From Dysidea avara (Eukaryota; Porifera; Demospongiae; Dictyoceratida; Dysideidae): a stretch of DNA of 64,000 bases. The translations under genes and the position numbers were made by a program. Location: NCBI RefSeq assembly GCF_963678975.1, contig NC_089284.1, forward strand, positions 2,694,001 through 2,758,000, given 5' to 3'. Positions within the stretch are counted from its first letter, which is position 1; every line of letters begins with the position of its first letter. Below are positions 1,346 to 63,800 of this stretch, one piece after another. Under the pieces are notes generated by a model. It saw nothing but the letters and a program-made list of their open reading frames with translations. It had not been told where the DNA came from and did no database searches.

Positions 1346-2524
1346 TTTCAATCGGTTATAAGGGATCGTGAAGCTACTACATATGTATGTCAATATACCC
1401 ATAGTGTGGCAGGCACGCTGGCTTCTGGGATGCATGACACACTACTGTGTGTCTTGATAAACTAGCACCTGGTTTGTTGACAAATATTCCTCCAATACAA
1501 CAGTTCTACAGGCATAAAGACCTTCTGACAAGCAAAACTCTACATGATTATTGAATTTTAATATTGCAAAGTTCCTAAAACACAAGATTAAAGTCTTTAC
1601 AATAAAAATGCATGCAAAACACTTTGCAAACTTAAAAGTGTATGAATTGGTTTTCAATATTGACAAGTTAGTTACTTCATATAGTTAATCTATGCAAGCT
1701 AGTCCATTTAATTCTTGACTGGTCTATTAGAGTATTACAGTGCAGGGTAAATGCTTTATTAGAGTAGGTAGATTGTGTTTAGCAGAAGGATCCAGCAATG
1801 CTGCAAAGAAGCAGTTTGGTGTAAAATCCAGCCCATATTTGATACAGTGACTGTCAGGAATATTCCATTATTAAGTCCTACTTACCCTTCATGAGGTGCT
1901 GATTTAAACCAATGTATATGTGACTGGAATTTTGTCAGGAATCCACAAAGTACAGTGGAACTTCAGTTATCCAAACCCCTTGGTACCGGGGGTGATCCAT
2001 AAGTCTGAAAAGTCTGTATCTCTGAAACTGTGTATAAATAACAGCATAAAGAAATTTTAAAAAAATATTAGTATTTCAACTACTCTAATAGAACAGTCAT
2101 TTCCATAGTTCGGTTAACTAAGAATCTGGGTAAGTGGGGTCTGAGGTTCCACTGTATGCAATATTTGGCATAGTATCCTTGCATGTCAATTGACTGTTGC
2201 ATGGCATTGTCAAAGAGCTACATTTACCTATGTATGTCTAACAGTTCTTTACTTGTTATGTAGAGAAAGCTTACATGTGCCAATGAGCAACCAACACAAG
2301 AGGATAATGAGTTACAGGCCTTATCAATACAACATCACAATGAACTACAGGTTAGTGTCTCATGTCACTATGCAAACAGTCTCTGTGAAAGTACAAGTTA
2401 AATGCTTTGACTAATTAGTAACATACTGCTCGTTTTTGTATTCTAGTGGTGACCCCAATGTTGGTATATGGTATCATATAGTATGATAGTACTTATACTG
2501 TGTACTAGGGATCATGAAGGTTTG
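1346..2524. other. Intergenic, no gene seen
   Basis: No convincing coding segment or splice-bounded exon is visible. The stretch holds three occurrences of the short dispersed GACTGYTCTATTAGAGTAT-type motif: 1717-1735, a weaker one near 1753-1769, and a reverse-orientation copy at 2080-2099. Otherwise it is AT-rich unique-looking sequence. Confidence 0.5.
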
Positions 2525-3215
2525 GGCTTTTCTGGCCAAAATCATCACCCAAAAACCAGCTTCACAGTACCATCCTGGTGCTTTGGCAGTATTGGTTAGG
2601 TATAATCAAGCCTAAAAGTGCCTTCAGTACAACCCTTAATGCTTCCAAAAGATTGTTACAAAATTTTGAAAATTTTTCACTGATTGACATCACTTTGTCC
2701 GGAGACATGCCTTTTGGAATACCACAGTATATACAATGCACGCACCATGGACTTACCTTATCCTCCTTTGTGTCCCACCTCTTTTTGCTGACAGCCCAAG
2801 GTGTTGATTTGCAGTAGTGCAATGGATTTCCTACATTTATATATCGTTCATATTTTCTGTGGTGACTGGGTTGATTTCTTCTCCTACTGTTCTTCATTTG
2901 TAACAGGCTGAACATAGCTGAAAGCAAAGTGTAATGGCCCTTCCTAGGCTTGATAGTTGGGGCACGTGAATCGTCCATATTTTTTGTGGTGACTGGATTG
3001 ATTGCAGAGGTGCTTCTCATACTTTTCTTTATTTGTAGTACTGTGTATTGGGCTTAACATAGCTGAGTACATGGCCACTTCATTTTCAAGTCACTAATTG
3101 ATAGCTGGGGAGCACGTTCAGATAAAAACATTAACCCTGGCCCCATCCTTTCTTTGATGCAGAATGCACTGGTTCACTAGTCATAATAATATTACCCAAA
3201 AAAGTAAACAAACAA
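2525..3215 (+). repeat. Dispersed repeat family R1, copy 1
   Basis: This segment resembles 4260-4740, 4935-5200 and, in reverse orientation, 46120-46510. Shared landmarks are the GCAGTATTGGTTAGGTA block, a TTTTTCACTG-TTGACAT block, CCTTTTGG-ATACC, a CATGGACTTACC block and CCTCCTTTGTGTCCC followed by AAGGTGTTGATTTGCAGTAG. It encodes no recognisable protein. The copies differ in length and carry insertions, so they are old. Whether the source was a DNA transposon or a retroelement cannot be read here. Confidence 0.7.
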
Positions 3216-3260
3216 GTATCAGTAAAACTTAGGAATTTTAAGAGATCATAGAAAAAAAAA

Positions 3261-3406
3261 GGGAAACAAGGGAGGTTGCCCACTACACCTGCAGATATAC
3301 TAGTGGACATTTAATCCCTAATTCAGTCATGGGTATATATAGACTGAAGTAGGGATTAAATGTCCACTAGTATATCTGCAGGTGTACCTACCCTCCCTTA
3401 TTTCCC
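3261..3406. repeat. Fold-back (MITE-like) element, copy 1
   Basis: A near-perfect hairpin: the left arm from GGGAAACAAGGGAGG through CACCTGCAGATATACTAGTG to ATTTAATCCCT is answered by its reverse complement ending in CCCTCCCTTATTTCCC. Arms are about 65 bp with a loop of about 20 bp containing a CATGGGTATATATAGACT-type sequence. A second copy lies at 4759-4890. Confidence 0.85.
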
Positions 3407-4259
3407 TACTTTTTCTAAATTCCTAATTTTTCCTTATACTTGCTAGTAGTCTAAACATCAGTTTAACATTTATATTTATGTATGCATACAAATTACATGG
3501 GAAGCCAGAATTACTATGTATCTTTCATTAAGTTAAGATACATCTGCAGTGTGTCATGCAACTAAGGAAGCTGACATTACACCAGTGTGTCATTAACAGG
3601 GCAGCAAAATCATAATTACTTTACATGGTGCTCCCTTCTTCAAATATAGTAACAGAGGTGGAGGAAGGTAGGGGGGGCTCAAAATTATTTGAGCTGACAC
3701 TGTATAGAAACTGGAGACTTGTTCATGTTTGCAGTGATTAGCTACGGCACTCTCAGCATGCAGGGTCTTGGAGCATCTCTCACACACACACACACAGAAA
3801 AATTTTTCAAAAATAGGTGCTACAAGATTAAATTTGGTGGCACTTTTGCAAAAGTATTGTTAATTAAAATTTTTCAGGTATGACACTCGTACAATGAATC
3901 CTTCCGCTATATGATAATTATATAACTGCCAGTTTGGAAACCATGATGATATTTTATCATGTGATATAGTTGTGACGTCACACAAAGTAATTATTGGAGC
4001 TCTGCCCCTCTCATCTGAAAGTTGGGGGGACTCCAGCCCCTCTAGCTCCCCCTTCTGCTGCCATTGATTAGTAGGTAGGGTCACCTCCATATTACATTTA
4101 AATGAAATCATTTTAAAAATTACAAAGATGTGTGCAACCAGTTTTGTGTTTTCCTCCCATGTCACTTCACAAAATTGCTATAACACATCTGCAGTGTTGA
4201 AATTTGGTATACTTACAAAAGGTTTACACTTTAAATTTTTTTGCTACGCCTCTGAGCCT
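3407..4259. other. Intergenic, no gene seen
   Basis: AT-rich sequence with a short (CA)n run near 3780-3796. Open stretches on either strand are short, lack splice-site framing and show no recognisable family motif. I see no RNA gene. Confidence 0.4.
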
Positions 4260-38904: not shown

Positions 38905-39770
38905 TGCACGTATGCACACGCTACACACACATGCACGCTACACACACACACATGCATGCTACACACACACGCACGTTACACACACACACACACACATGTT
39001 ACACACACACACGCACGTTACACACACACGCACGTTACACACACACGCACGTTACACACACACGCACGTTACACACACACACACACACGCACGTTACACA
39101 CACACGCACGTTACACACACACACGCACGTTACACACACACACGCACGTTACACACACACACACACGCACGTTACACACACACGCACGTTACACACACAC
39201 GCACGTTACACACACACACACATGCACGCACGTCACACACACACGCACGTTACACACACGCACATTACACACACACGCATGCACGTTACACACACACACA
39301 TGTTACACACACATGCACACACGTTACACACACACACATGTTACACACACATACACACACGTTACACACACATGCACGCATGTTACACACACGCGCACAT
39401 TACACACACGCGCACGCACGCACGTTACACACACGCGCACACACGCACATTACACACACGCGCACGCACGTTACACACACGCGCACGCACGTTACACACG
39501 CACGCATGTTACACACGTACGCACGTTACACACGCACGCACATTACACACGCATGCACATTACACACACACGCATGCACGTTACACACACACGCATGCAC
39601 GTTACACACACACACGCACACATGTTACACACACACACGCACACATGTTACACACACACGCACGTTACACACACACACACGCAACACGCACACACACGCA
39701 CGTTACACACACACACAACACGCACGTTACACACGCACGCACACATGAAAGCTACACACAGATAACACAC
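38905..39770. repeat. 850-bp ACACACACGCACGTT minisatellite
   Basis: A long array in which CA runs of variable length are punctuated by GCACGTT or GCATGTT every 14-24 bp (for example CACGCACGTTACACACA). All three plus-strand frames stay open for about 270-300 codons because the array contains no stop in that strand. The resulting Thr-His-Ala-Arg-Tyr repeats are not a credible protein. GCACGT E-box-like cores recur dozens of times. Confidence 0.97.
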
Positions 39771-44597: not shown

Positions 44598-45069
44598 GGA
44601 ATTTTCAACTAGAGTAGGGACCATAGCACATCAATAAAAAGTACTGAAACAAGCTGGAGTAGTGCATGATATTAAATCACAGTAAAACAATAAGAAGTGT
44701 TATTCCCTACTGTGCTCAAGATACCATAATGGAAATGCACAGTAGGGATATAACACTTCTTATTGTTTTACTGTGATTCAATATTGTGCATTACTCCAGC
44801 TTGTTTCAGTACTTTTTATCGATGTGTTGTGGTCCCTACTCTAGCACAGTAGGGATATAACACTTCTTATTGTTTTACTGTGATTCAATATTGTGCACTA
44901 CTCCAGCTTGTTTCAGTACTTTTTATCGATGTGTTATGGTCCCTACTCTAGCACAGTAGGGATATAACACTTCTTATTGTTTTACTGTGATTCAATATCG
45001 TGCACTACTCCAGCTTGTTTCAGTGCTTTTTATCGATGTGTTATGGTCCTTACTCTAGTTGAAAATTCC
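44598..45069. repeat. Fold-back element with one arm amplified as three 107-bp tandem units
   Basis: The ends are GGAATTTTCAACTAGAGTA (44598) and its reverse complement ending at 45069. The left arm (44598 to about 44717) occurs once. The right arm is present three times in tandem as a 107-bp unit beginning GCACAGTAGGGATATAACAC at 44737, 44844 and 44951, with nearly identical copies (TTGTGCAT, TTGTGCAC and TCGTGCAC variants). No coding content and no convincing target duplication. Confidence 0.9.
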
Positions 45070-51864: not shown

Positions 51865-52088
51865 AGTTTCGTATCCGGCCGAGAATTCTAATTAATACGC
51901 ATCACAACATGAAACGCGGGGTCTATAGTTAGCTCAGTAGAGTTTTCGTCTTCTGTGATTTCAGCCAAATCACAAAAATGCAGAGACTATCTCGAACGCG
52001 GTGCGCAAAACCAGATAACAGGCCCGAAAACACATGATTTTGTTACTGTGTGAGTATAGATTATATATTCCCTATAATCTATGTGAAG

Positions 52089-53472
52089 TGTCAACGCACA
52101 AATGGTCCGGGCATATAAGGTCCGGGCGGACCATTTATGCTGTCACAAATGGTCCAGCCGGACCACTTGTGCTTACATAACTGGTCCCCCCGGACCACCC
52201 ATGCCAGTGCATGAATGGTCCGGGCTGAACATAAACGGTCCGCCTCCAGTTTGCCATGCATGCAATCGCTAATTGCTGGCGCGAATTTAGCAGTGTAAAT
52301 TATAGCTATCTGAAGCATCATGGTTGTTGCTACAGATAGCCAATTAAAACAAAGGTAGCTATTAAAATAAAGTTGACTCAAAAATACTCTGACATGCGTA
52401 ATTATATAAAATATTAGGTGTAGCTATGGCCTCAGCCCACTTGGTGAAGTAGTCAATAACTGTCAATATGTAGTGATTTCCTGTTGGAGATTTGTATGCT
52501 ATTGGGCCAACAAAATCTACTCCCAGATGATACCAGGGAGACTTGACTGGAACAGGATTCAATGCAGGAGCAATAGTTTCCAATTTTCTATTCACATGCT
52601 GACAGATATCACATCATTGTACAATTTCTTTGGCATCTTTGGATACTCCTTTCCACAAAAATCTCTCAGTGATTCTTGTCAGTGTCTTTCGATATCCAAG
52701 ATGGCCAGAAGTCTTATCTTCATGACAAGCACGTACAATTCTCAGCTGTTCCTTTCTGTCTCTGATGTATCTGAGTTCATGCACCTCATTTTTGCCCTTT
52801 TTCTTTTTGCTAAACATTATTTTCTCCATCAGCTGTGTGAAAGTTTGTTGCTTTCCTTCTTATAACGCGCTTCTGGTTTTGAGTAATACCTTCATGATAC
52901 TGCTTCTTTGTAAGGTAGAGATATACATCTTCTAACTGACAAGTCAGTCTCACTTTCATCTGTGACATCTCCGCAGTGGTTATCCTCTTCATCCGCAGAA
53001 GCCATGATCACTTTAAGCACTAGCTATAAGTTCTGAAACAGGATCACAAACTCAGTAGCTGTATTGCCAGCTGGCTACGTAATTCACACACGCCAATTTC
53101 AATAACTAAGCGAGCGAGTCTTGCAAAATATACTAATCAACTAGCCAGCTGCACATACGTAGTTAACTGAGCACTGGCGCCGGTTTAAAGACTTTATAGC
53201 GGCATACTGAGAGATTTTTGAGAGATTTTTGTGAAGACATCACTTCAAAGAGATGCGGCTAAAACCAACATTTATAGCTAGCTAACATAATTAGCTATTA
53301 TATACGGTATATGACTAGCTATTCACGAGGAGGGATCACTCTGGCTTAGCTATTTTGAAATTTGTAAACCGGACCATTTTTGTCGTCATAGTTGGTCCGG
53401 CCGGACCGTTTATGTCGAACATATTTGGTCCGGCCGGACCGTTTATGCACCCGGACCAAATATTTTGTTACA
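52089..53472. mobile_element. GINGER-like DNA transposon with palindrome arrays at both ends
   Basis: The left end is TGTCAACGCAC and the right end, reverse-complemented, is TGTAACAAAAT. Both begin TGTNR, as described for GINGER elements. Flanking tetramers GAAG (52085-52088) and GGAG (53473-53476) could be a 4-bp target duplication with one change. Exactly 15 bp inside each end lies a GGTCCGG half-site (52104-52110; 53451-53457), followed inward by full palindromes of the GGTCCGGCCGGACC type every 32-34 bp: left at 52119, 52151, 52183 and 52217 (degenerate), right at 53427 and 53394 (perfect) plus a half-site at 53369-53375. The mirror symmetry supports these ends. The interior carries a broken integrase. 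At 1.38 kb it is an internally deleted, probably non-mobile copy. Confidence 0.75.
52362..53005 (-). pseudogene. Broken gypsy-type integrase of the GINGER-like element
   Basis: Minus-strand pieces in order: an ATG at 53005 beginning MASADEEDN; a frame-shifted QLEDVYLYLTKKQYHEGI segment (about 52940-52880); the HHCC zinc finger (RACHEDKTSGHLGYRKTL to CDICQ, about 52740-52600); and the catalytic core start with PWYHLGVDFVGPI and YILTVIDYFTKWAEAI (about 52540-52425). The order matches integrases of the GIN1/GINGER group and of Ty3/gypsy elements. A stop codon replaces a residue just before CDICQ, there is at least one frameshift in the N-terminal part, and the sequence stops after the second beta-strand region, so the rest of the DDE core is missing. 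It cannot encode an active enzyme. Confidence 0.8.
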
Positions 53473-53476
53473 GGAG

Positions 53477-54068
53477 ACATCCCATCGCTGGCCATACTGA
53501 TCAGGTCTTTTGGCTTAGGGTGTACACATTCTTTTTAGGTAGACTAGTGCTTTAGACCCTATTTCCTCGCGGGTGCATGGCGCTTATCATTTAGATTTCA
53601 GTCTGATTATAGAACTGATGATAACTATCAGTCACGGCTCTCAGCCGGTGAACTAGCTACTGAGCCGGTGTCTGGCACAGGGCAGTACTAAGCTATAGGC
53701 CTAGGGGCTTATGGCTCACGGTAATCAGCACAGCCGTTCTTTCTTAGAGCATACACACTGAGTTATAAGTATATGTACAAATCAGCAAGACAAACACATC
53801 ATGTGGCCGTGCCGGAGTCAGTCAGTACGTGTCACGCCAGTACCGCACTGGCTGACTAGCCACACGAAAGCAACCTACGTAGCTATAGCTCCAAAGGGTG
53901 CAGCACATGTTGCTGTCAGACCTTCAGTGCTGGCTACTGTAAAGCTTTAATAATATAATCTGCCCGGACCAGACAAACAAAACTGATCAGTATATCGTAC
54001 AGCTACATGCACAGCAAAAAGTCAAAAACAGTGGTCTGCATGGAGATGAATGTCATCGGGCAATTCAT
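53477..54068. other. Intron or intergenic, no gene seen
   Basis: Somewhat less AT-rich sequence between two transposons. A GCCGGTG-containing patch lies near 53640-53680. No coding evidence. Confidence 0.35.
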
Positions 54069-54370: not shown

Positions 54371-55849
54371 GTGAAATAGCATACATTCAGTTGCACAAGT
54401 AACTTACCATATAGCTAGCTATGTGCTTATGCCTGCTGAGTGTGAGGCTCATGGGATGGACAGACCTCCTGTGTCCCTTAATTGGGTGTACAAGATACAT
54501 CCCAAGGGTGGCTCCAGGAATTTTGGTGAGAGGTTTCCAAAATTTTATTGTATGCACACTTAAATCTAGGAGAGTCTGGGAGCATGCTCCAAGAAGAATT
54601 TTTTGAAAATTATGTTCTGAGTCTGTAGCTAACAATTTTCTGTGGCCAAACAATCTTTAAAGCTGACATGTAGTTAATCATATCATATGTTATAGGAATT
54701 GATTGACTCATATGTCTGTTGTCAACAGACACTTGTATGCTTCAAACTTCACATTGCTCCACCTCTTAAATCTTTAGCCCGCTCCTGATTCAGTGCCAGC
54801 AGAAACAAGCAAGCCTATGATGCCAATCATGCCCCCAGAAAAAAATTAAGATCTTAAACATGTAGCTACTCTGAGATACAATTTTAGACTATATTTTATA
54901 CTGCATGTGTTTGTATATATACGTATACGTAAACTAAAAAAATACAAATAGGACTGTTCTATTAGGGTAGTTGACTGCTCTATTAGAGTATTTCTATCTG
55001 AAACTTTGATATCAGTTCACAATCAATTTTAACTGTCTAATTATATACTTGACCAGTTTCTGGAAACCTCAGAAAACCCTTAGATCCGCCCCTGCATTCT
55101 CAATATTCAATATACAAATTTAAGTTATTTTGTTTTTGTCAGTGACATGTTGCATGTGTATAGTATATATGCATGCAGAGGTATAAATTATAGCGATCTA
55201 TTAATTGAGCTTTGTGAGATGAACCAGTAGAATATTGACTCGATCTCTCAGCAGCTGGGGGCTGCACCCCCATGCAGACCTTTGAATCTGTAACTTGATA
55301 TATTGCTGCTGCTGGAACACCTCTTTGCAAATATCCTGCATGCATGGTTTGTTATTGTTATTAGAGCTTTACAGTGACCAGCACTGAAGGTTTGACAGCA
55401 ACATGTGCTGCAGCCGTTGACAGTATAGAAAGCTCACACATTGTTTGTTCCATGCAGCTTGATAGGCCGTGACAATGCACTGTATATATGATCATAACAA
55501 TTAGTGTATATATATATACGCAAGTGAAAAATTATACATTTAATAATATATAATTTATATAGTGCATGGTAGAAATTACAATTTTCGAGTAAAAATGGGT
55601 TACCAAAAGGGTCCGACTTTCCACACTTTTTGATACTATACATGTGCTTTTGCGCAGTTAAGTTTACATGCACAGTAGCACCTTCCCTACTATTGGGCGA
55701 AGTAGTATGTGGGCAGGTGATGGGAAACAATTAAGTAATGCATGCATGATCGCATGAGTAATGCTGCATGGCTTTTTTTCTCCTAAGTAAAAAACCCTGC
55801 AAGAAGGTAAAACAACAAATCAATCAGTAAGCATGCAGTAACAGTTAAG
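54371..55849. other. Repeat-rich intergenic, no gene seen
   Basis: It contains two tandem GACTGYTCTATTAGRGTA motifs (54952-54970 and 54973-54991) and GGGTGGCTCCAGGAATTTT (about 54506) and AACCCTTAGATCCGCCCCTG (about 55076-55095), which look like opposite ends of a decayed hAT-like element. No exon was recognised. Confidence 0.4.
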
Positions 55850-57891: not shown

Positions 57892-60800
57892 ATGGCTGGT
57901 TGTGATGATTTAGTCGAGGTGGAATCGCAACTAAAAAAAGAACTGAAGCTTTTAACATCCAAGAACAGACGAAGAGCCAGACATAGGAGAGCTCTAAGGC
58001 CTTCCAGCAGCAATCAATTTATACATCATCACTACGATGGAAGTGGGCAACAAATTACGAAGTCTATTCCACGCAAAAGAGTTAGAACTAGTGGACAAGC
58101 CAGTCAGGGTGAGTCCGTGATACTGCATAACTAATCAGGCCACTTGTTCACATCATTGTTATACATTAAATTTGCCAGGTGTTACAGCTCAACCAGCAAA
58201 TAAAAAGGGAGCCCTTTGATTCACCCCTAAATCCGTAAATTGAAAGTTGCTTAGGAGATTAAAGTTAGTTGGGATAGCCTTTGCATTACATCAGTAACAT
58301 GGGCACAGGATGTGGAAGGTGAATTTGGGCATTTGATTCTCCAGTAGTCACCAAGTAGCCACCCGTCAATTTTACAGCTGGGCCTAGGCTATCAGGTTCC
58401 CAATGCACACATGAACACACGAACACACACACACACACCTTTCACTATAGTATGTCCATGTTGAGCTGATTCCTTTAATAACTCAAAATGGAATTGAAAC
58501 TTGGCACATTTGTAGTCTTCCTCGACCAGCTAAAAATGTTTCAGAATGTTTCAGAATTTTGTCATCCAAATTTTCAACAGACTTTATGGCCAATCGAAGT
58601 TTTCACCACACACTTCCTATGTGGAAGCCATAAAAGTATGCAGTCCGATAGAGGATATGTGGCGGAACCTAACTGTACGTGTGTACTCTTGATATCTTAA
58701 CTGATCACTAACAATTTGGTTGGGTGAAATGTTCTCTTTGAAAAAATTCCACTTTTTATTATTTTAGCTGATTTTTTCAGGAACAATGCTGTATTCATTA
58801 CTGCTTCAAAGTCAAAAGCAAAAGTCTCTACCTGCCATAAAGAACGGTCACGCCGGCCCAGCTAAACTGGGCTGCCTGTGCACTAGGCAGGCACTAAGAG
58901 CTGCGCTAGAAGATCCTCCTGGGGGAGGACTAGTGCCGGCATGCTCATGGATGATGGTGTATGCCCCAAAGTCCCACATGAACCCTGTCCATTAGTAAGA
59001 CTTTGATAGTAATAGGCACTTGCTTTGACAGTTACGTAAAACCAGTTCACCAGATTCCTATTATACAACTGGACAGTCTGGAGCATTATGAGTTTAAGTT
59101 TCTTATTAAATCATCCCCCAAACTGCCCTGACTGGGCATTGATCCTGGAACCTTAGTGGTTCAATGTCAACATGGTTATTAAATTGTTGCAAAACTTTTG
59201 ACTCCAGCAATGTTGGGACCTCAGCTATTCCACTGTTTGATTGTACACTTTGTTATTTCTATGTAGATGTTTGTTATGATGCACAAGAAAGTGATTATGG
59301 AGTTGAAGGTATTTGCGATAACAATAGAGACCACTGTCAAGGTTGGTGCTGCCAAATAATGCATTTTTGTAGACCATAGTTTGCTTACTTTATAAGAAGA
59401 TGTACTGTATGTCTACGTAGGTGCAAGGTAAGTCACAGACTACTAAGTCCACTAGCTTTTAAAATAATATGCATTATGTACAGTGTATTGTGGTATACAG
59501 ATGTGTATCTGATACCCCTATTGTCATAAAGCCACACAGCCCTTGTAATAACAAAGATGTTTGAATTCCACTGTATGTGATTGTCAGAATTGCACCACCT
59601 TGGTCTGATGCTATATCCCGCTGTAATTCTGTAGCTACTGTGCATGGTCAAACATATGCATACCTGTACTTTACCCTTGCTTTATATAATTGCAGACAAT
59701 GAACTTCAAGCAATGGTAGATGAGTTAAGGGAAAGCCTCAATGCTATTCCATGCACTGCTGAGCCTGCCAGTGTAATGAAGAGTTGGGCTGAAAGGAGGG
59801 AACAACTAGAACAAAGCTGGGAGAGCCATAGAGCCAAACTCTTTGAAGAAGTGGTGACATCAATGGCATTACCACCTGAAGCAGTATGTGCATTCTGTAT
59901 TTTGTGCTAAATTAGAATATGATAGTTCTAATATAGCATAAACCTAATTGATTTTGTTGATTTAATTGCAGAAATGTTCAATGTGCGGTGATACTGATAC
60001 AGCAATAGTGCGGTGCCATCAGTGTGGCTACTCAAATATGACATACCTGTGTCCACTTTGTGATTGTCATGTTCATAATGATCACCCCCTCCATGACAGA
60101 GAATATTGGAATGGACACTACTTTACATTTATTCCACCAACACAGTATCCTTGCCCAGATACAGGAAACTTGATCGATATCGGTAGGTGAAATTTATCTC
60201 ATAATGATAACAATGTTTACCTGTACAATGAAACTGAAAGCTGGGATACCAAGAGAGTAAATAGTAATACACCATGACACAGTATTTTTAGTATACAGCC
60301 TCCACAGTATACTGTATGATCTACAGTAGACATCTACGTACATCATCTTTGTGTGTGTGTATAGTGTGTAGGTGTGTGTGTAGTGTGAGGCAGCACAGCT
60401 AAGTGGTCAGAGCTCCGGCCTGTTATTTGAAAGGTTGCAGGTTCAATACCTGGTTAGGCCCAATTTGCTGTTGTTGTTTCCCTGAGCATGAAACTTTATT
60501 CACATTGCTCCAGTCTACCCAGCTGATAAATGGGGACCTGGTGAACTGGTGTCAACTGGTGAAGCAGCCCACCCAGCTGTAACATCAATGGGTACCTGGT
60601 ATGAACTGAGGAAGCAAGAGTCTACCACTGTCCACATCTCACTAATGGATGGGGTTCAGGTGAGACCTTGGGTGCCCACACCATTAGTCTCGCATGGCCA
60701 GACCGCTTTTTTTCTTTTGTGTGTGGGTGGGGAAAGAATAAAATGCAGTCTAGCCACGTGAGACTGCCACACCATACGTAATCCATGAGCTTGGTACAGC

Positions 60801-63800
60801 TCTCTTGCGGGGTATTGGCCCTTCCCCAAGAGGAACTTCTACCATGGCTCCTAGTGCCTGCCTAATGCACAGTCAGTCCAGCTCAGCTGGGTTGGTGTGA
60901 CCGCCCTGGTGACAGCTAGACTTTGATTTTTGCTTTTGTGCATATAGTGTGTGTGTGTGTGTGTGTGTGTATAATGTCTATGCAATATATGTGTGACCTG
61001 GTTCAGAAGTAAAGGAGGCCTAGCAGTACACACATCCGTTCAATGGCAGCAAAAGAGCAAGCAAGCAAGTGTGTAGTGTAGTGTAGTGTAGTGTGTGTGT
61101 GATAGAGAGAGAGTACTCAATGACTGACTTCAGTCTGTGGTAGAAGACTCTGTTGCTAACTCTCAGTGTGGTTTCAAAGCTGGTAGGGGCTGTGTGGACA
61201 TGGTTTTTTGTGTGCGACAACTGGTAGAAAAGACCATTGAACATCATAGCCAAATTTTCATCTTGTTTATTGATCTTCTTAAGGCTTATGACTCTGTGCC
61301 AAGACAGGCACTTTGGTCTGCTTTGCAGAAATACGGTGTACCTGATTGTATGGTAGATTTGGTATGTTCTTTTCATTAAGGGAAGGTTGCCACTGGGGCA
61401 GTAGGAGCAGAGGAAGCACCACCATTTCAAGTAAGATATGGATTGCATCAGGGCTGCACCATTGCCCCAACTTTGTTCATCTTGTATTTTGACTTGGTTA
61501 TTCGGTGTTGGTTACTGTAAGTCGCTGTAATGCTGTAGGAGTTGAGGTGCTGTACAAGATAAGTGGGAAACTTGCTGGGGAGCGTACCAGAAGACCCTTA
61601 TCATTTACTATATCTGATTGCTTGTTTGCTGATTATGCTGCACTGATCTGCTCTTTTAGAGAAGTTGCTTGTGGCTGGTGTCCATATTACAACTGAGGCT
61701 GTAGTTGCATAGGATTTAAGTGGTGGTAGCATAGAGGTAGTGAAGGAATTTAAGTATTTGGTGTCACTGATAGAGGCTCATGATAGGATGACAGAGGATG
61801 TAAGTCACAGGATTGCACAGGCTTCTAGAGCTTTTGGTGAGCTGCACAATTCTGTGTTCAGCTTGTGATCTTGGATTAGAAACTAAGAGACTAGTTTGTC
61901 AATCTGTAGTGCTTGGTGTTCTTTTGTACAGTGCAGAGACCTGGACTCCTACTCAAAAACTTGTCAGGAAGCTGGAGACCTTTCATCGTCATTGTGTCAG
62001 AGGTATCATGGGTATTGGCTGGACTATACAGTGGGTAGAGCACATCACCACTACTCAGCTTGTTGAACGTTTTGGCATGCATGAGTCTATCAGTAATCTA
62101 TTAGCTTTAGCTAGACTTAGGTGGTTGGATCATGTGGCACGTATGCCTGATGACCACATGCCAAAAGGGATTCTTTTTGGTTGGCTGCCACAGAAACGAC
62201 CTGCTCATGTTGTGAATTGCGTTGGCATGATAAAATCAGACAGAGCTTATCAATTAATGACTAAAAGCTCAGGATAGAAACTTATGGAAACAGGTAGCTA
62301 CTGAAAGACTAGGTGACTGGACCACGTTCTCAACCTAACTTGTTTTGTTGTTCAACTTGCCACAGATCATTCAGAAGAAGAAAAGATATAGCTCAAAATA
62401 AGTGTATAACTACCTGCCCTCAACATAGCCACCGTTGATTAGATCTAAAGTGGAATCTCCAACCAGAGCATCATTCCCTGAATGGCTCTCTTCCAAGTAT
62501 GTGTGTGTTTGTGTGTGCGTGTATGAGGCAACACAGCAAAGTGATCAGGGTACCGGCCTGGTAATATAATGGGGACCTGGTTGGTAGCCTGGTGTTACTG
62601 GGGAAGCAAACGCTCAGTTGCCCTAGTCTCGATAGTAGTGTTGGGGCTGTTGTGGAACTTTTGAGTTCTGCAGCCTCTCTCCATGAGGCCTGGACAGTCC
62701 TCCTGCAGGTTGCTAGTCCGATTTGCCTTCACAGACTCAAGTGCCTGAGTGGTGCACAAGCATCCCAGTGCTGGTTCGCTGGGAAACAATAGCTGTGTTT
62801 CGCATGGCTGCTGTAAGCTTTGCTTTTCTTTTTTGTATGTGTCTGTGGTTGTAGTATTTGTCTGTGTAGTGTAGTGTGTGTTTGTGTAGTGTAGTGTGTG
62901 TCTGTGTAGTGTAGTGTGTGTCTGTGTAGTGTAGTGTTTGTCTGTGTAGTGTAGTGTGTGTCTGTGTAGTGTAGTGTGTGTCTGTGTAGTGTAGTGTAGT
63001 GTCTGTGTAGTGTAGTGTGTGTCTGTGTATGTGAGACAAGGACTGTCCTTGCCTCACTTAGCAGTGTTGTGGCTGTTGTCGAACTTTAGATTCTGCACTT
63101 TCTCTCTGTGAGATCTGGACAGTCCTCCTGTGGGTTACTAGTCCTGATTTTTCTTCACAAACTTGAGTGCTCAAGTGATGCACAGGCATCCCAGCACTAG
63201 TTCACTGGGCAGTAATAGCTGTGCTCCACATAGCTGCTGTAAGTATTGCTTTATGTGTACAATAATGTTTCATAAGATTTTATCAGAGGTATACTGTGTT
63301 TACTTGGTTATAAACGCCGTGGTTACTGTTACCTATGCAGTAAAAATCGATGTGGCGGCTATACGAAATACACAACCACTTGACACTCAAGAAAGATGTT
63401 TAAGCCCTTTCTATTGTGGCATCACTTATGTGTGGCTGCTGTTTAAGTTGTGGTGTCTAACTCCACTCATATATACCCAGAGTAGTCTATTTTAATGGCC
63501 ACCTGACTAACTCAGTATAAGATCATGTTTAAATTTCTTCAGTGAGCATGGCATACATCAGGAGCATTTGTACTTTTGGGGCGCTTATAATATGCTCCTG
63601 CATAAATTAATTCAGCTGTGTAAATCAGCCACCTACCCATTAAAACCCCAAAAAATTATCCTGAAGGTGACTGTTTTAGTCATGTTCCACTGTTCTGTGT
63701 TTTCCACTGTAGCTAAAAATTGTTTCATTGTTTTTTTTTTAATAGAAAGAATTATTGCTCCAGGAGGAAACCCCATGTGCTCAAATTGCAAGAGCACATT

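Follow-up and report, generated by a model that had tools for sequence, protein, structure and literature searches.

A transposon copy at 52089-53472 of the window (the whole 64,000-nucleotide stretch of Dysidea avara DNA analysed here, C13:2694001-2758000) bears at its two ends arrays of GGTCC half-sites. These arrays are ordered and unequal, and they are common, with some variants, to three diverged transposon families of this genome. The copy is a nonautonomous, internally deleted Ginger1 cut-and-paste transposon of the type carrying Ulp1 and PHD domains. The account that we favor as a whole, and regard as a likely one, is that of a Ginger1 copy whose half-site arrays are bound by the transposase and mark the ends. 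With respect to the published description of Ginger1, the ordered unequal arrays and the GNNC target preference are new.

The Window Element and Its Ends

The element starts with TGTCAACG and reads TGTAACAA from the opposite side. As a first-pass annotation of this DNA had proposed, a GGTCCGG half-site is located 15 bp from the terminal TGT at both ends, with TGT from 52089 and GGTCCGG from 52104 at the left tip, and with CCGGACC and ACA having their last bases at 53457 and 53472, respectively, at the right tip. A different placement of the boundary, with ATGT outside the ends, was discarded, as copies stop at 52089 and 53472 and the duplications are found there. The features are as follows (window coordinates, with the strand where one applies):

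52085..52088: left flanking 4-mer GAAG, an imperfect target duplication (other copies mostly have identical GNNC)
52089..52241, plus strand: six-site 'S' end, TGTCA, with GGTCC half-sites at offsets 15, 30, 62, 94, 128 and 148
52104..52110, plus strand: terminal half-site GGTCCGG, 15 bp from the tip
52119..52132: palindrome-like site GGTCCGGGCGGACC, the commonest family-A form (6/9)
52151..52164: palindrome-like site GGTCCAGCCGGACC, one base off the common form
52183..52196: palindrome-like site GGTCCCCCCGGACC, the commonest family-A form (6/9)
52217..52230: site GGTCCGGGCTGAAC, the commonest family-A form (5/9)
52237..52241, plus strand: inner lone half-site, offset 148
52417..52425: internal deletion junction, approximate, with ~2.15 kb missing relative to L025
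52422..52613, minus strand: start of the DDE integrase core (first D region), truncated by the deletion
52614..52859, minus strand: H2C2 zinc-binding domain (Pfam PF17921, E 2.4e-13)
52792..52935, minus strand: N-terminal region upstream of H2C2, frame-broken
53371..53472, minus strand: five-site 'F' end, TGTAA, with half-sites at offsets 15, 32, 65 and 97
53394..53407: perfect palindrome GGTCCGGCCGGACC
53427..53440: perfect palindrome GGTCCGGCCGGACC
53451..53457, minus strand: terminal half-site CCGGACC, 15 bp from the tip
53473..53476: right flanking 4-mer GGAG

With up to 3 mismatches, seven sites of the GGTCCGGCCGGACC type are present in the window, whereas shuffled windows have 0.15 on average and never more than 2. 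Six are inside the element (starts at 52119, 52151, 52183, 52217, 53394 and 53427) and the seventh, with 3 mismatches, lies outside at 58846. The annotation had described mirror-symmetric arrays of 14-bp palindromes at 32-34 bp intervals. The arrays are indeed inverted at the two ends and the palindromes do follow each other at 32, 32 and 34 bp in the left array and at 33 bp in the right array; however, the spacing differs between the ends, and the first interval, from the terminal half-site to the next one, measures 15 bp at the left end and 17 bp at the right end. Similarly, the palindromes of the right end are perfect as claimed, but those of the left end are not generally decayed, three of the four having the form commonest among nine family-A elements (6, 6 and 5 of 9) and only the second departing from it. 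The S-end offsets of the window element are identical in L025, L041, L046 and L052, and the F-end site at offset 117 is missing from the window copy.

Regarding the deletion, positions 1-337 of the window element correspond to 1-357 of L025 and positions 329-1384 to 2504-3600, L025 being 92-93% identical to the window copy outside the missing ~2.15 kb. A longer direct repeat at the junction was rejected, the best shared word being only 5 bp. Close to the five-site end (53206-53233), a 15-base piece of the integrase region (52654-52670) is found again as two inverted copies, perhaps a scar of faulty repair. Elsewhere, the window contains genes with DUF4042 and CUE domains, which mark the DNA as eukaryotic, an ACAC/ACGC-rich tandem array of ~820 bp that is open in several frames (38917-39745) and two clean tandem repeats, one of three copies of 107 bp (44737-45058) and one of ~9.6 copies of 20 bp (62838-63029). 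A ~66-bp repeat at 53890-53955 and 55348-55415 also occurs inside family-C elements (86-87%).

Distribution and Mobility in the Genome

In the genome searched (551 Mb, 108 contigs), GGTCCGGCCGGACC with at most one mismatch occurs at 1,089 places, versus 7 for the reversed control, and among the matches listed all nine close pairs are 32-34 bp apart. A TGTNR end adjoins the palindromes in 20/20 unselected loci, i.e., the first 20 clusters of GGTCCGGCCGGACC in listing order on contig C1 (19 identified by script and L033 by eye). A DNA search with the window element gave at least 83 matches, a lower bound as 40 of 280 candidates were scored, and many of them begin or end exactly at element position 1 or 1384. 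The pattern CCGGACC-N12-ACA is not enriched by itself because it is short (551 matches versus 596 in the control), whereas CCGGACC-N12-ACA-GNNC has 288 matches versus 23 in the control. Among 100 listed matches of the shorter pattern, GNNC follows 51 of the 67 end-like ones and 1 of the 33 unrelated ones.

Within the first 100 matches including GNNC, 32 convergent end pairs were found within 30 kb. Each of the 32 associates one TGTCA end with one TGTAA end, and 28 have the identical 4-bp duplications that had been expected of this transposon, with ~2 expected given GNNC; the window copy itself, with GAAG/GGAG, is imperfectly duplicated. Both ends were read in 21 elements, of which 19 have identical duplications. 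Seven of these 21 had been preselected from the 32 end pairs, all matching, and 12 of the remaining 14 match as well; the two exceptions are the window element and L024+L042 (GGCC/AGCC). The element length is 3.6 kb for L025. At C3:33593212-33614776, matching ends stand 21.6 kb apart with identical GTTC duplications, indicating either a very large element or nested insertions. A search with a longer motif gave no match in viral and genome contig collections. Viral contigs with two adjacent sites (L001-L011) were rejected as unrelated, being GC-rich and, by eye, made of collagen-like coding repeats.

An Unequal End Design Shared by Three Families

The elements fall into families that we label A (the window element, L025, L038, L041 and others), B (L022, L024, L032, L034-L037, L039 and others) and C (L023, L026-L029, L031 and L040). 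By blastn, A and B match in their end regions (~140 and ~125 bp, 69-79%), in a dispersed repeat of ~60 bp and, for those B elements that have them, in integrase coding parts; B and C have some internal repeats in common; between A and C no match was found at E 1e-5. The half-sites of the TGTCA end are located at offsets 15, 30, 62, 94, 128 and 148 in A, at 15, 30, 63, 97, 130 and 150 in B, and at 15, 30 and 63, a degenerate position near 96, then 128 and 148 in C. Those of the TGTAA end are at 15, 32, 65, 97 and 117 in A, at 15, 32, 66, 99 and 119 in B and at 15, 32, 64, 97 and 116 in C. Overall, the S end thus has its sites at 15, 30, 62-63, 94-97, 128-130 and 148-150 and the F end at 15, 32, 64-66, 97-99 and 116-119. 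An alignment of copies had been proposed as a check of whether the spacing is conserved, and it is so across copies and families. When ends were picked without regard to spacing, 35 of 36 F ends had their second half-site at precisely 32; for the S-end candidates, which include some internal TGT words, it was at precisely 30 in 29 of 38. As copies within one family are not independent, it is the comparison between families that carries weight: when two families are compared at sites defined solely from the third, identity is 82-99% in the half-sites and 44-67% in the remaining bases. The three families may share one ancestor, so that their common spacing counts only insofar as the rest has diverged.

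Natural variants show how the S array changes. L054 (805 bp) has kept only its outer 92 bp, L055 contains a repeated extra 63-bp piece, C5:7405098 lacks one dyad and the array of L032 is devoid of the first interval. The S array is thus modular, and all four variants have identical duplications; these changes could also postdate insertion. Short elements without any integrase retain both arrays. In the five-site end of one family-C element (L026:4407-4637), extra tandem GGGCGGACCATCTGCAGCA units of ~19-20 bp are found inside the array.

Such gains and losses of units (L055, C5:7405098), together with the likeness of both ends of an element, are what would be expected if the arrays arose by neutral tandem duplication of a subterminal unit, with a spacing devoid of function. 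We give this explanation hardly any credence, as it does not account for half-sites that are 82-99% identical amid bases at 44-67%, nor for a first interval that is end-specific in three families.

Half-Sites as the Conserved Unit

Within the sites, GGTCC and GGACC are constant and the central four bases vary (GGCC, GGGC, CCCC, TACC, GACC), from which it follows that the conserved unit is the half-site. The palindrome, initially taken as the unit, holds only in part: half-sites are often, but not always, paired as GGTCC-N4-GGACC dyads, mostly 32-34 bp apart. The symmetry of the arms outside the core is 0.585 in family A and 0.640 in family B, versus 0.287 and 0.358 expected from composition, and symmetry across families is lower (0.442 and 0.382). 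No such excess was seen in family C (0.446 within the family versus 0.507 across families). Within a family, arms taken from different palindromes pair no worse than those of a single palindrome, and site-by-site compensation between arms is absent (within-family shuffle p 0.63, 0.16 and 0.89). Some dyads are moreover mispaired in most copies, e.g., AGTCC....GGACC.

These observations bear on the idea that the palindromes form DNA cruciforms or RNA hairpins. Perfect 14-bp palindromes, and arms that extend the symmetry in A and B, would fit such structures; nevertheless, the half-sites at 15, 116-119 and 148-150 stand alone, without a partner. The absence of site-by-site compensation and the mispaired dyads favor half-site recognition by a protein over hairpins, which we consider very improbable.

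Integrase and Coding Content

The broken GINGER-type integrase announced in the first-pass annotation is present on the minus strand, with a stop between H2C2 and the core and a frame break before H2C2, and its 3' half, including the second D and the E, was lost through the internal deletion. The core piece of the window is 93.6% identical to the L025 core over 78 aa (Pfam rve E 0.013, under the cut-off), and the N-terminal region is 62.5% identical to the N-terminal piece of L041 over 48 aa. Longer copies do encode a Ginger integrase, as had been anticipated for full-length ones: they comprise H2C2, a DD35E core, a GPY/F-like motif, a Ulp1-like protease and a PHD finger. H2C2 is recognized in L041 (PF17921, E 1.6e-13), and rve (E 3.1e-12) and PHD (E 8.2e-6, over its cut-off) in L025, where Ulp1 (Peptidase_C48) is found as two pieces collinear in the profile, at 4.3e-4 (20.6 bits, cut-off 20.7) and 0.013. 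In the C12 copy, 35 residues separate the second D from the E. The GPY/F motif was recognized by eye as RWLGPYEIV in L025, L041 and the C12 copy, and this region matches SH3_Tf2-1 with E 9.7e-6 and 26.0 bits, below the 30-bit cut-off. Upstream of H2C2, the YPYY region of L041 reads QYREG...ANF...LVF, in which, by inspection, the Y and the aromatic positions seem present and the P absent.

Frame breaks are common to both family-A1 copies, and no intact full-length transposase gene was found. In the A2 subgroup (L041 and others), the coding sequence is in several pieces, as if interrupted by introns, and the copies hardly differ in their ends: of 18 ends, 17 have an identity of at least 97.4% to L041 and one of 94%, which suggests a recent spread. 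No reverse transcriptase was found in the 3.6 kb of L025, scanned ORFs of at least 70 aa giving only rve, rve_3, PHD and a weak Ulp1. Searches of the PDB gave only weak matches of the core piece to the Ty3 and PFV integrases (E 0.078 and 0.39), a weak match of the Ulp1 piece (E 0.36) and none for the H2C2 piece; three pieces had no match in NCBIfam, the window had none in Rfam, and the core piece, searched as protein against viral contigs, gave no relative.

A protein search with the L025 core gave at least 24 genome loci at 50% identity or more (131 of 2,671 candidates being scored). Array-type ends were found near 21 of the 22 loci examined, two of these 21 being known from 22-26 end bases only and one (L043) being decayed; around L044, one of two integrases at 51-52% identity, no array was seen within 7 kb. 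Both ends were sought by predicted position at 14 integrase loci and found at 8, and all eight elements have identical duplications, seven being GNNC. The contrary case considered at the outset, of ends located elsewhere or of palindrome arrays lying away from integrase-bearing elements, was hence not encountered, given TGTNR ends at all 20 unselected loci and at 21 of 22 integrase loci. Matches to the integrase core at ~34-46% identity occur at many places, often in open frames of more than 1,000 aa, as expected of gypsy pol.

The position of the arrays relative to the gene raises the question of a role as operator or enhancer, bound by the transposase or a host factor and mainly controlling transcription of the transposase. 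The F array does lie upstream of the integrase, with ~370 bp between it and the likely N-terminal codon near 53005, and promoters usually have multiple sites at a set spacing. We nonetheless regard such a role as unlikely to be the main one, since a longer array with its own fixed spacing stands at the S end, on the opposite side of the gene, the short elements devoid of integrase keep both arrays, and the offsets are fixed to the transposon tip.

A further explanation is that the GGTCC sites are recognized by a host DNA-binding protein, and not by the transposase, with the element being assisted or silenced as a result. It would fit the GGTCC core common to all three families and the presence of the sites in families B and C, whose fetched copies gave little or no integrase (none was found in those of family C, nor in most of family B). 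We attribute a similarly low probability to this explanation, for the spacing is locked to the cleavage end and different between the ends, and the arms beside the core are family-specific in A and B, as if each family's protein had changed along with them.

Relationship to Known Systems

With Ginger1, as described by Bao et al. 2010 (PMC2836005), these elements share TGTNR ends, 4-bp duplications, H2C2 and an integrase with DDE and GPY/F-like parts, and, with Ginger1-9_HM in the same description, Ulp1 and PHD at the C-terminus and a comparable size (3.6 kb here vs. 3.76 kb). The duplications published for Ginger1, as a property of Hydra elements, are CCGG (75%) or CCGT/ACGG (24%) (Bao et al. 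2010, PMC2836005), whereas GNNC is found here; with target preference treated as variable, the element is a Ginger1 variant. The terms palindrome and subterminal are absent from the main text of that article, to which the comparison with Hydra is confined (Bao et al. 2010, PMC2836005). In the literature searched, largely outside subscription journals and judged by titles and passages, no description was found of Ginger end binding, of such arrays or of a GNNC preference, and a word search of a 2026 paper on Imagin, a Ginger1-derived gene, for six relevant terms was empty. Unlike Ginger2/TDD, which lack GPY/F and target RTATAY, GPY is present here and targets are GNNC. Gypsy LTR retrotransposons have a related integrase, which in this genome has ~34-46% identity to the core of L025; they differ in that the elements described here have inverted arrays at their ends in place of long direct repeats, with no reverse transcriptase found.

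En/Spm (TNPA sites), Mu and Tn7 have several transposase-binding sites at each end, with number or spacing differing between the ends; their transposases are unrelated or distantly related, and their sites are not known to be arranged in dyads at 32-34 bp. The closest studied parallel to these ends, by analogy of layout, is Hermes (hAT), with precisely positioned subterminal repeats and unequal ends (PMC10368747). As described for this transposon, a quasi-palindromic pair beside the terminal repeat is cooperatively bound by two BED domains and an octamer gathers several sites (PMC10368747). Hermes differs, however, by its transposase superfamily, its AAGT/C site, its binding domain and its 8-bp duplications, and it has two palindromic site pairs where a run of 2-4 dyads at near-constant spacing is found here (PMC10368747).

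A Model for End Recognition

Judging from site conservation and layout, the arrays most likely hold transposase multimers that discriminate between the two ends and bring them together. The GGTCC half-sites would be bound by the transposase, or by a protein that works alongside it, with one protomer on the lone terminal half-site at 15 bp, beside the cleavage site, and dimers on the dyads, which are 32-34 bp, or about three helical turns, apart. The differing arrays would label left and right, so that cleavage, and then integration with a 4-bp stagger, would proceed once one array of each kind has been brought into a pair. Against this model stand the changes tolerated by the S array, the failure to find an integrase in the fetched elements of family C and in most of those of family B, the L044 integrase with no array within 7 kb, the frame breaks of the A1 copies and the lack of enrichment of the bare CCGGACC-N12-ACA pattern. 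The GPY/F region is described as mediating multimerization (Bao et al. 2010, PMC2836005). More tentatively, the transposase, of retroviral-integrase type, may assemble on the seven to ten GGTCC half-sites of each end as an ordered multimer made of dimers and a lone terminal protomer, left and right being set by the offset of 30 versus 32 bp. If true, this would represent a mode of end recognition not described for integrases, with an array that grows or shrinks by whole units.

End recognition and pairing by Ginger transposases, which are cut-and-paste relatives of retroviral integrases, seem to have been little studied. From the present findings, integrase-type enzymes seem able to work with ends that, like those of Hermes, are long, unequal and composed of multiple sites. 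With their conserved sites, spacing variants and short derivatives, the elements of this genome constitute a natural set with which the question becomes testable.
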